Shown piece after piece: positions 2,688 to 46,493 of a stretch of 48,581 nt of DNA. A program made the translations under genes and the position numbers. The notes beneath the pieces are model-generated. The model was not told the origin of the DNA. It searched no databases and saw only the letters and a program-made list of their open reading frames with translations. Origin of the DNA: Patescibacteria group bacterium (GTDB lineage Bacteria; Patescibacteriota; Patescibacteriia; SG8-24); assembly GCA_028714475.1 (NCBI GenBank), contig JAQTNC010000009.1:1-48581 (forward strand), written 5' to 3'. Within the stretch, counting starts at the first letter, position 1, and each line of letters opens with the position of its first letter.

Positions 2688-2868
2688 GAATGAAGACTCC
2701 CCGGGCTCACGCCCGGGGTATCTAACGCCCCATCCTGTTTCATTCACCGTAGCCCACTGCCCCCTACGCCCTCCGGGCTTCGGGGGATTCACGCGTCAGG
2801 AACCCGGGCTGACCCCACTACGCAATGCTTCGTGGGGCACCGCGCCCGGGGTATTCGGCGGAGGTGAA
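2688..2868. repeat. dispersed hairpin-rich element, copy 1
   Basis: shares gaatgaagactccccgg...cccatcctgtttcattcaccgtagcccactgcccc...ctccgggcttcgggggattcacgcgtcagg...cccggggtattcggcggaggtgaa with 13072-13305. Confidence 0.9.
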
Positions 2869-4249: not shown

Positions 4250-4566
4250 GATGCCCTCTTGTCTGGACGGTTGGGGTGGAGACGGACGAACCGTAGCCAC
4301 GATGGAAAAAACAAAGCCCCGCTTGGTGAGCGGGGCGGTCTCTCGTTTCAGGTGAATCGCTTGATTCAGTGATACTAGAAGCCGCCTCGCCGATAAAACG
4401 GGGTAAACCAAAACGCAAACGCGCTCACGTTCCGGACGGACAGATTGGCGGTTGCGGTGGTCATACAGGGGCAGTATGCCTCACGGTCGGGATGGTGTCA
4501 AGCGGATGGCGGCAATAAAAACAGAGAAGTGAGAACCGTTCTGGCCCGACCTTGTGGAGGGCCATG

Positions 4567-4585
4567 CCCCTCGACAAGCTCGGGG
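4567..4585. repeat. uninterrupted dispersed palindrome CCCCTCGACAAGCTCGGGG
   Basis: exact reverse complement CCCCGAGCTTGTCGAGGGG is the reconstructed host palindrome at 23176-23221. Confidence 0.8.
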
Positions 4586-21550: not shown

Positions 21551-22786
21551 CTACCGCCACCCGCGTGCCTGCTGGGCTTCGGCGATGCGCCGGACGGCGA
21601 GGGCAAAAGCCGCCGTTCGGAGCGTCAATGACTTGTCCGTAGCCAAACCAGCCACATCATAAAATGCCTCAACCATGAGCTTTTTCAGCTTATCATTCAC
21701 CTCCGCTTCGGTCATATAGTAACCCGTCCGATTCTGCACCCATTCGAAATACGACACGGCCACGCCACCAGAGTTAGCGAGCACGTCCGGAATGACGGTA
21801 ATGCCTTTTTTGGCTAATTTAAAATCCGCTTCCGGTGTCGTCGGGCCGTTGGCAAGCTCCAAAACGACTCTAGCCTTAACCCGCCCGGCGTTCTTATCGG
21901 TCAGGACATTCTCCGTCGCGGCCGGCACAATCACATCCACCGGCAGTTCAAGGAGCCGCTCGTTGGAGATTTCCTTGTCGGCCGGAAAGCCTTTCAGGTT
22001 GCCGTGTTCTTTCTTGTAAGCCAGCGCCTTGTCCAAATTGATGCCCGCCGTCGCGTACACCCCGCCTTTGGAATCGGAAATGGCGACGACCTTGTACCCG
22101 GCCTCGCGGGCCAACTTGGCGAACCAGAAACCGACGTTGCCAATGCCCTGCACGGCGATGGTCAAATCCTTGGCTTTCAGGTTGGCGCGACGACGCCACT
22201 CCTCGAGCGCAAACAACCCGCCTCGTCCGGTCGCCGCCGTGCGCCCGAGCGAACCGCCAATAGCGATCGGTTTTCCGGTAATGACCGCCGGCTGGAATTT
22301 CCCTGTCACGCGCGCATACTCGTCCACCATCCACGCCATGATTTCCGGCGTCGTGTTCATGTCCGGCGCCGGCACGTCCACGTCCGGCCCGATGACCGGC
22401 GCGATGGCGCGGATGAACGCGCGCGACAGGCGTTCCAACTCCCCTGACGAAAGTTTTTTCGGATCCACTGCCACGCCGCCCTTGCCGCCGCCGAACGGCA
22501 CGTTCACGACCGCACACTTGATGGCCATCCAGAAAGCGAGCGCCTTCACCTCGTCGAGGTCGGTCTTCGGATGGAAACGCAAGCCGCCCTTGAATGGTCC
22601 GCGCGCGTCGTTGTGCTGGACACGGTAGCCTTCGAAAACTTTCACCGCGCCGTCATCCATGACGACCGGTACCGACACCTGCAAAATCCGTTTCGGGTGT
22701 TTCAAAACCTCGACCACAACCGGATCGAGCCCCGCCGCTTCGGCGGCATTTTTTAGCTGAACAAGGGCATTTTTGAAGATAGTCAT
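21551..22786 (-). CDS. gdhA: Glu/Leu/Phe/Val dehydrogenase (glutamate dehydrogenase-like)
   Basis: PFKGGLRFHP, PFGGGKGG, VPAPDMNT, GIGNVGFWFAKLA. Confidence 0.93.
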   Translation of the reverse strand: MTIFKNALVQLKNAAEAAGLDPVVVEVLKHPKRILQVSVPVVMDDGAVKVFEGYRVQHNDARGPFKGGLRFHPKTDLDEVKALAFWMAIKCAVVNVPFGGGKGGVAVDPKKLSSGELERLSRAFIRAIAPVIGPDVDVPAPDMNTTPEIMAWMVDEYARVTGKFQPAVITGKPIAIGGSLGRTAATGRGGLFALEEWRRRANLKAKDLTIAVQGIGNVGFWFAKLAREAGYKVVAISDSKGGVYATAGINLDKALAYKKEHGNLKGFPADKEISNERLLELPVDVIVPAATENVLTDKNAGRVKARVVLELANGPTTPEADFKLAKKGITVIPDVLANSGGVAVSYFEWVQNRTGYYMTEAEVNDKLKKLMVEAFYDVAGLATDKSLTLRTAAFALAVRRIAEAQQARGWR

Positions 22787-22810
22787 AATATGGCATCAAA
22801 AAAGATTCTA

Positions 22811-22851
22811 GCCCGAGCGAACCCCGGCGAAAGCCGGGGGAAGTCGAGGGC
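22811..22851. repeat. nested palindrome GCCCGAGCGAA[CCCCGGcgaaagCCGGGGG]AAGTCGAGGGC
   Basis: host arms as in the CCCTGAGCGAAGTCGAAGG-type palindrome at 46474. Confidence 0.75.
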
Positions 22852-23045
22852 CAGTACCGACAAACCCGCCCATTTATTAGGCGGCTTTTTCCCATCGGCG
22901 TCAACAAACGCGGAGAGGCGAGTGTGATTCCCGAAAATTTTTTCGTCTCCCCTTCCTTGGGTCGAGACGGCGACGCTTTTCGTAATACAACATACAACGT
23001 GCGGAGCACTCCTTGCGGAATTGATGACTTCATCTCGCGAGGCCA

Positions 23046-23068
23046 CCCTGTACCGTAATGGTACAGGG
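23046..23068. repeat. hairpin CCCTGTACCgtaatGGTACAGGG
   Basis: near-identical palindrome inserted at 23187-23209. Confidence 0.75.
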
Positions 23069-23175
23069 CTCCGCAGGCCGAGCGCATACGATTATTAGTG
23101 GGTGGAGGCTTGGTTTCTAGATGAGGCCGGGCGGGGTCGCCCTTTAAGGCCACTCGACGCCCGCGTCGGCTCAGT

Positions 23176-23221
23176 CCCCGAGCTTGCCCTGAACCATTAC
23201 GGTTCAGGGCTTGTCGAGGGG
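23176..23221. repeat. nested palindrome CCCCGAG-CTTG[CCCTGAACCattacGGTTCAGGG]CTTG-TCGAGGGG
   Basis: CTTG direct duplication flanks the inner palindrome; empty form is present at 4567-4585. Confidence 0.85.
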
Positions 23222-23316
23222 CGACGCGGGACGGCGATGTGAGCGAAGGCCGCCGCTGGAGCGGCCGAGCGTGCCGTAAGGGCGACCCCGCACGGCCGGG
23301 CGTGTTTTTTGGAATG

Positions 23317-23357
23317 CCCTTCGACTCCCCCGGGTCGCGGCCCGGGGTCGCTCAGGG
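23317..23357. repeat. nested palindrome CCCTTCGACTC[CCCCGGGtcgcggCCCGGGG]TCGCTCAGGG
   Basis: inner palindrome interrupts a cccttcgact...cgctcaggg palindrome. Confidence 0.75.
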
Positions 23358-23378
23358 AATAATTTGATTTGAATAAAC

Positions 23379-23404
23379 AAAAACGAGGCCGCTCGGCCTC
23401 GCCT
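23379..23404 (-). terminator. intrinsic terminator of trxB
   Basis: minus strand GCGAGGCCGAGCGGCCTCGTTTTTGTTT. Confidence 0.8.
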
Positions 23405-23421
23405 CCATCAATCACATTTTG

Positions 23422-24345
23422 CTACGGATTCTCCTCAAGATAATGCAACGCGTCGAGCCCGGCCTGGCAACCCGCACCGGCGGCCGTGATGGCCTGGCGG
23501 TAACGGTGGTCAGCGATATCGCCGGCGACGAACACGCCCGGCACGCTCGTCGCGGTCGTTTCGCCCACGCGGCGGACGTAACCCGCCTCGTCGAGCTCCA
23601 ACTGCCCGCGGAAAATCTCCGAGTTCGGATCATGGCCGACGATGGGAAAGAACCCGTCCACGGCGATTTCCGAAAGCTCGCCGGTCTTGGCATCCTTCAA
23701 TCGCGCGCCCGTCACCCGACCCACGTCAGCGCCGAGCACATCATCCACGAGTGTGTTCCACCGAATCTCGATTTTCTCGTTATTCAAAACCCGCTCCTGC
23801 ATTGCCTTCGAGGCGCGGAAAACGTCGCGGCGCACGAGCATGATGACCTTGTCCGCGAAGCGCGACAGGAGATCCGCCTCCTCAAGCGCCGCGTCGCCGC
23901 CACCCACGACCGCCACGCGCTTGCCGCGGTAGAAGAACGCATCACAGATTGCGCAGGACGAAACGCCGTGTCCGTATAACGCCTCCTCGGAAGGCACGCC
24001 GAGCCGACGCGGGGTGCTGCCGGTCGCGACGATGACCGCCCGCGCCTCCTCGGTCTCGCCGCCGAACGTCACCTTGAAAGGACGCGCCGAAAAATCCACG
24101 GCCGTCGCCTTCTCAGCCACCATTTTCGCCCCAAACCGCTCGGCCTGCTTGCGCATCCCGACCATCAATTCCGGCCCGTCCACGCCGTCGGGAAAACCGG
24201 GGAAATTCTCCACCGTCGTCGTCTGCATGAGCAGGCCACCGGCCAAATCCCCTTCTAAAACAAGCGGAAAAAGCCGCGCCCGAGCGCAGTAGATACCCGC
24301 CGTATAGCCGGCCGGTCCGCCGCCGATGATGATGACGTCACGCAT
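23422..24345 (-). CDS. trxB: thioredoxin reductase
   Basis: IIGGGPAGYTAGIYCARARL, SSCAICDAFFYRGKRVAVVGGGDAALEEA (CxxC). Confidence 0.95.
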   Translation of the reverse strand: MRDVIIIGGGPAGYTAGIYCARARLFPLVLEGDLAGGLLMQTTTVENFPGFPDGVDGPELMVGMRKQAERFGAKMVAEKATAVDFSARPFKVTFGGETEEARAVIVATGSTPRRLGVPSEEALYGHGVSSCAICDAFFYRGKRVAVVGGGDAALEEADLLSRFADKVIMLVRRDVFRASKAMQERVLNNEKIEIRWNTLVDDVLGADVGRVTGARLKDAKTGELSEIAVDGFFPIVGHDPNSEIFRGQLELDEAGYVRRVGETTATSVPGVFVAGDIADHRYRQAITAAGAGCQAGLDALHYLEENP

Positions 24346-43294: not shown

Positions 43295-43345
43295 GGGGAC
43301 TGTCCCCGGGAAAACTGTGGATAAGGGGGACAGGCACCGGACGGC
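43295..43345. repeat. dispersed repeat ttggggactgtccccgggaaaactgtggataagggggacaggcaccgg (copy 1)
   Basis: almost identical to 45254-45302. Confidence 0.9.
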
Positions 43346-45211: not shown

Positions 45212-45253
45212 TATAACAAAAAACCGCCATTGCCGCCGCTTATCCACAGTTTT

Positions 45254-45302
45254 CTTGGGGACAGTCCCCGGGAAAACTGTGGATAAGGGGGACAGGCACC
45301 GG
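45254..45302. repeat. dispersed repeat (copy 2)
   Basis: ttggggacagtccccgggaaaactgtggataagggggacaggcaccgg. Confidence 0.9.
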
Positions 45303-46429: not shown

Positions 46430-46493
46430 CCCTTCGACTCCACTCCGCTACGCTCAGGGAATATAATTAATATGCCCTGAGCGAAGTCGAAGG
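46430..46493. repeat. paired dispersed palindromes CCCTTCGACTC..GCTCAGGG - AT-rich core - GCCCTGAGCGAAGTCGAAGG
   Basis: inverted repeats flanking aatataattaatat. Confidence 0.85.

Follow-up and report, generated by a model that had tools for sequence, protein, structure and literature searches.

The window, that is, the whole stretch of 48,581 nucleotides analyzed here, is contig C9 of a draft assembly with gaps (1,406,340 bases, 43 contigs, about 60% GC). Other loci are labeled by contig and position in the same assembly, as in C7:25920. Between 22811 and 23357, three palindromes are each interrupted near the center by another palindrome, all of them where the original prediction had placed them. 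We refer to the outer hairpin as the host and to the inner one as the guest. The features of the window that are relevant to this study are the following.

2814–2842, plus strand: a CCCGGGCTGA-C..GCCCGGGG hairpin whose loop has received CCCACTACGCAATGCTTCGTGGGGCACCG, one more insertion of the hairpin-in-loop kind; paralogues elsewhere in the genome are empty
4544–4562, plus strand: empty REP of the GCCCGACC..GGAGGGC type, tag GTTCTG, loop TTGT
4567–4585, minus strand: empty REP host CCCCGAGCTTGTCGAGGGG, tag TTTCTG, from the genome host survey
22811–22851, plus strand: host of case 1, arms GCCCGAGC (22811–22818) and GTCGAGGGC (22843–22851)
22991–23303, plus strand: dispersed composite repeat of about 300 bp that holds the case 2 nest and the nest at 23046
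23036–23084, plus strand: host2 hairpin CGCGAGGCC..GGCCGAGCG with a tandem G.A motif; inner palindrome CCCTGTACCGTAATGGTACAGGG at 23046–23068
23131–23291, plus strand: level 1 (outermost) palindrome of the case 2 nest, GCGGGGTCGCCCTT (23131–23144) and AAGGGCGACCCCGC (23278–23291), conserved in paralogues
23160–23230, plus strand: level 2, CCCGCGTCG (23160–23168) and CGACGCGGG (23222–23230), conserved in paralogues
23176–23221, plus strand: level 3, REP host, CCCCGAG (23176–23182) and TCGAGGGG (23214–23221)
23187–23209, plus strand: level 4, innermost mobile hairpin CCCTGAACC-ATTAC-GGTTCAGGG, 23 nt, with a 4-bp direct repeat
23317–23357, minus strand: case 3, ATAT-tagged REP host, CCCTTCGAC (23317–23325) and GCTCAGGG (23350–23357)
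46430–46459, minus strand: REP with a tripled tip, (CTNCG)3, a mini-hairpin GC-GNA-GC bracketed by GNA

The whole genome was surveyed by script for host hairpins, guests, and empty or occupied forms, with the host arm pairs CCCTGAG/TCGAAGGG, CCCCGAG/TCGAGGGG, and GCCCGAG/TCGAGGGC. This survey returned about 190 REP-like imperfect hairpins in 1.41 Mb (187 matches with the three arm pairs). Outside predicted ORFs of at least 120 aa, a crude ORF call that also defines "intergenic" in this study, lie 140 of the 190. Copies within one family are not independent events, which applies to all counts reported here. As read from the arms, the host stem contains a tandem G.A/A.G mismatch (CGAG against CGAG), and the opposite strand reads CCCCGAGC..TCGAGGGG and equivalents. 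The tag is one-sided and sits at the 5′ foot of the hairpin, the 3′ side being much less conserved: GTTCT precedes CCCCGAG, GCCCGAG, and GCCCGACC hosts, and ATAT precedes CCCTGAG hosts. On the strand reading CCCYTCGA, empty loops are CAAG or CAGG (A-type) or CTTCG, CTACG, or CTCCG (B-type), while about 50 host loops are filled with another, longer hairpin. The host predicted to be empty at 4567–4585 is present, and the loop TTGT of its neighbor's type (GCCCGACC..GGAGGGC) is elsewhere filled by CCTG-tagged hairpins. Neighboring hosts are inverted in 39 of 46 pairs, a number in which a tandem array on contig 35 is counted several times; within the CCCT family, A-type and B-type partners are usually 11–19 bp apart. 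At C35:15-258, an 88-bp unit forms a tandem array, each unit with a GCCC/CCCC REP pair.

High copy number, a location mostly outside genes, the 5′ tag, the stem mismatch, and the inverted doublets give these hosts the layout of REPs and REPINs (PMC3116915, PMC8266576, PMC6006769). The canonical REP tag GT[AG]G is absent from the REP-like hairpins of this genome, its place being taken by GTTC, ATAT, or CCTG. Since tests for the canonical tag and for the transposase (see below) both came out negative, we do not claim full membership in the RAYT-REP class. The arm pattern CCCTTCGAC..GCTCAGGG matches twice in the window and 58 times in the genome, compared to 0 matches in 100 shuffles of the window and 0 genome matches for the reversed control, so that chance is excluded for the host arms. 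The nesting of hairpins is also far above chance genome-wide: of 616 perfect hairpins (8 bp or longer), 38 are enclosed by a perfect outer stem of 7 bp or more, whereas re-pairing of the flanks gives 6.1 on average and 13 at most.

Case 2 (23176–23221) has the structure CCCCGAG-CTTG-[CCCTGAACCATTACGGTTCAGGG]-CTTG-TCGAGGGG and constitutes levels three and four of a four-level nest. The loop CTTG of level 3 is duplicated, at 23183–23186 and 23210–23213, and encloses the level 4 arms (23187–23195 and 23201–23209). An Rfam scan of 22700–23450 gave no real match. The surrounding repeat of about 300 bp is itself built of several palindromes (GTGCGGAGCAC, host2, REP), with copies on C2, C3, C7, C14, C36, C41, and other contigs. 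These copies supply both forms of the case 2 site, occupied at C9:23176 and C3:45183 and empty at C7:25920 (loop CTTG), C14:28720, C2:131770, and C2:135750. The occupied form exceeds the empty one by 27 bp, which corresponds to the 23-bp palindrome plus CTTG. For the closest copies, the 60-bp flanks are 85–97% identical; between C9:23176 and the empty C7:25920, identity is 90% on one side and 97% on the other. The comparison is one between paralogues of a single genome, as even the best glutamate dehydrogenase matches among the genomes searched are about 60% identical. Because the paralogous copies are either empty or hold 23 bp together with a duplicated CTTG, case 2 is a true insertion. The nested palindrome with a 4-bp CTTG duplication is confirmed, and its reading as the insertion of a hairpin into a hairpin is supported by the shared flanks and by the dispersal of the guest in other phyla. 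The inner palindrome at 23046, which had been described as standing alone, is actually nested in host2 (23036–23084). All 30 genome copies of host2 are filled, and none is empty in this genome. Its tip is hypervariable, with about ten inner hairpins with matched arms (GGCCGCC.., GGCGGCA.., GGCGACA..); apart from the copy in the window, examples are C6:15116 and C7:20471.

A search for CCCTGAACC-N5-GGTTCAGGG across 84,980 species genomes returned matches that, outside terminator-like contexts, have identical 4-mers on both sides. In Streptomyces, matches of the inner palindrome run on into stems that resemble terminators, and two guest variants are rare in viral contigs. Counting all variants of the more general form CCCTGNACC-N5-GGTNCAGGG in the fetched DNA of other genomes, with trimmed stems since the G-C pair of CAGG/CAGG lengthens the stem, we observed that 32 of 85 sites are flanked by exact direct repeats of 4 bp. 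The expected number is 5.4, and none of 5000 re-pairings reached 32. None of the 85 sites carries a 5-bp repeat, and a target duplication of fixed length is a feature of DDE-type MITEs. The repeats comprise 13 cases of CAGG/CAGG and 9 of CCTG/CCTG, never mixed; without these, 10 of 63 still match (0.95 expected). In a Planctomycetota genome, the CCCTGNACC guest has 4-bp repeats at ordinary, non-palindromic sites, and in another Planctomycetota record (L224) it lies, flanked by a CCAA repeat, within the loop of the hairpin CCCTGTACC-AATAA-GGTACAGGG. In the genome analyzed here, the copies with 4-bp repeats lie in the REP loops CAAG or CAGG, yet 3,964 CARG tetramers are available between genes. 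Because the 4-bp repeats recur at sites in other genomes, the CCCTGNACC guest is a dispersed element that carries a 4-bp duplication.

This guest is not the only one. Exact 4-bp repeats together with empty paralogues characterize three guest families, CCCTGNACC-N5-GGTNCAGGG, CCCCTCCG..CGGAGGGG, and GCACGTCG..CGACGTGC. Self-comparison of the genome for indels identified CAGG-[GCACGTCGCTCGCGAGCGACGTGC]-CAGG at C3:80433, a 24-bp palindrome that is present in one copy and missing from 10 empty paralogues, for which insertion rather than loss is therefore the simpler history. DNA-energy folding revealed no convincing host hairpin at this target, and for this reason we take the locus as a sign of mobility and not as a nest. 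Further examples are TGGA-[CCCCTCCGTTCGCGAACGGAGGGG]-TGGA at C34:669, with two empty copies (C1:17593 and C6:14991), and a CCCCGGGCTGA-CGCCCGGGG loop that is filled by a hairpin at some sites (C6, C9:2814, and C2) and empty in several other copies. The indel comparison also returned REP-in-REP insertions at C29:9300, C31:1040, and C1:109784. One and the same guest can occupy hosts of different types: CCCTCACCATTTC..GAAATGGTGAGGG is found in three of them, and CCCTGAACC in both CCCT- and CCCC-hosts. REPs of the type TGGTGAG..TCGAACCA, preceded by CCTG, CCTA, or CCGG, reside in the loops of other REPs without any duplication, at the insertion points CTTG^T, TTG^T, and CGCG^T. Loop insertion without duplication is what single-strand (HUH) transposition would be expected to leave behind. 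At C13:32351-32393, CCTG-TGGTGAG..TCGAACCA units of 23 bp each form a tandem array. A different set of palindromes, CTTATCCACAGTTTTC..GAAAACTGTGGATAAG, has arms with a DnaA-box-like TTATCCACA and a center that nests GGGGACAGTCCCC; it occurs in the window at 45235–45291 and near 43295, and also at C1:61154, C5:43735, C18:16266, C20:12302, C31:3413, and C31:3498.

The explanation that we consider probable is that REP-like mobile hairpins land in the tips of other hairpins through the action of an enzyme. In this reading, the hosts are REP-like elements, that is, short imperfect hairpins with a 5′ tag and a G.A/A.G mismatch, many of them in inverted pairs. The guests would be other short hairpin elements inserted at the apical loops of these hosts, which would create nests of up to four levels. 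A host folded on the lagging strand or in a cruciform may present its loop as single-stranded DNA, and this loop could then serve as the target to which a recombinase acting in trans would join the guest. With the CCCTGNACC kind, the filling in of a 4-nt stagger would duplicate the loop letters. More tentatively, CCCTGNACC-N5-GGTNCAGGG and look-alikes in several bacterial phyla may make up a class of mobile hairpins, each about 23 nt long, whose insertion duplicates exactly 4 bp of the target and is carried out by an enzyme other than a RAYT or a known IS transposase. In the present genome, their landing sites would be the loops of other hairpins, and recursive nests would follow.

A narrower form of the preferred explanation has a RAYT/IS200-type HUH single-strand transposase act in trans on all guests, guided by the 5′ tag. 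The combination of tag and hairpin, the stem mismatch, the inverted pairs, and the CCTG-tagged guests without target duplication are all consistent with this idea, as are the Y1 genes that occur in several further genomes with these hosts or guests. In the present assembly, no Y1 transposase was found: the best PF01797 hit has an E value of 0.9, in a 43-contig draft that could miss a gene, and neither the NF047646 profile nor a custom profile built from the Y1 proteins of other genomes gave a match. A strict scan of the genome for the HUH+Tyr motif returned nothing, and a looser one 40 unspecific candidates. The original prediction spoke of an unidentified mechanism, and as regards the enzyme this stands. 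Insertion without duplication, as in RAYT systems, applies to the CCTG-tagged TGGTGAG guests, whereas the exact 4-bp repeats of the CCCTGNACC guests differ from site to site, and larger target duplications are not known from IS200/IS605-type insertion (PMC2817692). As an account of all guests, one such transposase is doubtful. A gene-bearing parent with CCCTGNACC ends and matching 4-mers was also sought, in 0.64 Mb of G335/G336 and in fetched loci; this search yielded 0 candidates and only short-range hairpin pairs.

Cases 1 and 3 must be judged differently. Case 1 reads GCCCGAGC-GAA-[CCCCGGCGAAAGCCGGGG]-GAA-GTCGAGGGC, with the inner palindrome at 22822–22839 between GAA at 22819–22821 and GAA at 22840–22842. 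Case 3 reads CCCTTCGAC-TC-[CCCCGGGTCGCGGCCCGGGG]-TC-GCTCAGGG, with the inner part at 23328–23347. The occupant CCCCGGGTCGCGGCCCGGGG is also present at C4:47340, and the empty TCG form (CCCTTCGACTCGCTCAGGG) does not occur in the genome. The flanks of B-type hosts read T-N-C on both sides, which is GNA on the opposite strand. Such flanks suggest an alternative in which the apex of one REP type changes in place, in length as well as in sequence, by slippage, template switching, or compensatory change. The repeated letters on either side of the inner hairpin would then not be a duplicated target but a symmetric mismatch motif, GNA/GNA or GA/GA. Indeed, the left and right flanks of GNA-bracketed nested tips agree in 12 of 25 cases (9.8 expected, permutation p = 0.22) and those of tripled tips in 24 of 38 (22.9 expected, p = 0.34), as composition alone would give. 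This permutation rejects the idea that GNA-bracketed tips generally carry a target duplication. Tips with 1, 2, 3, and 4 CTNCG units number 27, 0, 38, and 0, as if only a foldable GC-GNA-GC apex were kept. In the (CTNCG)3 tips, the central unit equals the right one in 1 of 38 (6.8 expected), as if loop and bracket favored different GNA motifs. The constant filling of host2 with different perfect hairpins also agrees with change in place, and published REP loops vary alike, with di- or trinucleotide mismatches between outer and inner stem in the examples given in PMC3733652. The pair CCCTTCGAC..GCTCAGGG surrounds a long loop in 30 of 287 genomes of the phylum; in many of these, TC/TC or TTC/TCC brackets likewise enclose inner hairpins of other sequence, REP-in-REP among them, and some contain merely adjoining or decayed repeats.

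Thus, of the short flanking duplications that had been described for this cluster, CTTG of case 2 holds up, and those of cases 1 and 3 do not. The flanks of the latter two (GAA/GAA and TC/TC) fit a symmetric mismatch motif and are not above chance. Hairpin insertion as originally proposed gains no such support in these two cases: the inner sequences show no dispersal of their own, and the flank identity does not exceed composition. Cases 1 and 3 are as likely to be tip variants of one REP type as they are to be insertions, and the variation at GNA- or GA-bracketed tips (cases 1 and 3, tripled tips) is probably in part variation of REP format, not new insertion. As an explanation of the whole phenomenon, change in place is unlikely. 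It leaves unaccounted for that one guest can occupy several kinds of host (CCCTCACCATTTC..GAAATGGTGAGGG, CCCTGAACC), that CCCTGNACC has exact 4-bp repeats at non-palindromic sites in other phyla, and that occupied and empty copies stand at one to ten at C3:80433.

The history may also be read in reverse, with the nested form as the ancestor and empty forms arising by precise deletion between the flanking repeats through replication slippage. Palindromes flanked by short repeats are known to be lost by deletion between those repeats, and the existence of empty and occupied forms gives no direction by itself. This possibility is nevertheless very improbable, since C3:80433 is the sole occupied copy among 11, CCCTGNACC has its 4-bp repeats in unrelated, non-palindromic contexts, and guest families recur in different hosts. 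Finally, hairpins are common in a genome of 60% GC, the Streptomyces matches run into terminator-like stems, and hosts are somewhat more frequent in convergent than in divergent gaps (37 vs 21, at about equal gap length), but the view that the structures are ordinary intrinsic terminators or chance palindromes in GC-rich intergenic DNA is hardly credible in the face of family-specific arms, one-sided tags, and empty and occupied paralogues, and for the host arms it is refuted by the shuffles and the reversed pattern.

Insertion of mobile hairpins into hairpin tips, the reading we prefer, has precedents. According to the accounts in PMC3733652, GTAG-23 of Thermomicrobium roseum, GTAG-15 of Anabaena variabilis, and CGTC-1 of Halothiobacillus neapolitanus are REPs inserted within small palindromes, as observed here, and the target palindrome of T. 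roseum occurs in hundreds of copies. Because REPs within many-copy palindromes have been noted for T. roseum, the kind of arrangement is already known. In those systems, as described there, each genome has one REP family and one type of target, whereas the present genome has several guest families. Unlike in those systems, the hosts here are themselves REPs, the recursion extends to four levels, and one kind of guest has a 4-bp duplication; the same accounts mention neither duplication nor recursion for REPs of the T. roseum type. The novelty of the present genome lies in the recursion, in the presence of several guest families, and in the 4-bp footprint. The REP sequence strings of this genome gave no match in the open-licence papers searched, and earlier reports in other journals may exist.

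Other elements share single traits. E. coli GTAG-3 and Bradyrhizobium GTAG-14, as presented in PMC3733652 and PMC2817692, also combine an outer stem, a short mismatch, and a variable, self-complementary inner region, and E. coli-type REPs have the 5′ tag and the bulged stem in common with our hosts. In contrast to those REPs, the tag here is GTTC, ATAT, or CCTG instead of GTAG, the inner regions include dispersed hairpins of other families, and a RAYT gene was not found. Inverted REP pairs with a short spacer are typical of REPINs (PMC3116915); here, the partners usually have one CARG and one CTNCG loop (CCCT family), no cognate RAYT was found, and nesting in loops is not described in that paper. 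The GC clusters of yeast mitochondria, whose transposition enzyme is unknown, likewise have short direct repeats and merge with one another, but they are organelle elements with other sequences and repeats of 2–3 bp (PMC4478555). IS elements that target REPs also use REP hairpins as insertion sites, but they carry genes, whereas the inserts described here are gene-free hairpins of about 20–35 nt (PMC1525189).

REP elements are among the most common repeats in bacteria, and their spread is rarely seen in action. The matched empty sites, together with the fixed 4-bp duplication of one kind of guest, are a direct record of insertion position and footprint. Since this footprint differs from the expectation for RAYT, it points to a second mobilizing activity. 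Hairpins that land in the tips of other hairpins provide one route to long, multi-level hairpins in intergenic DNA.
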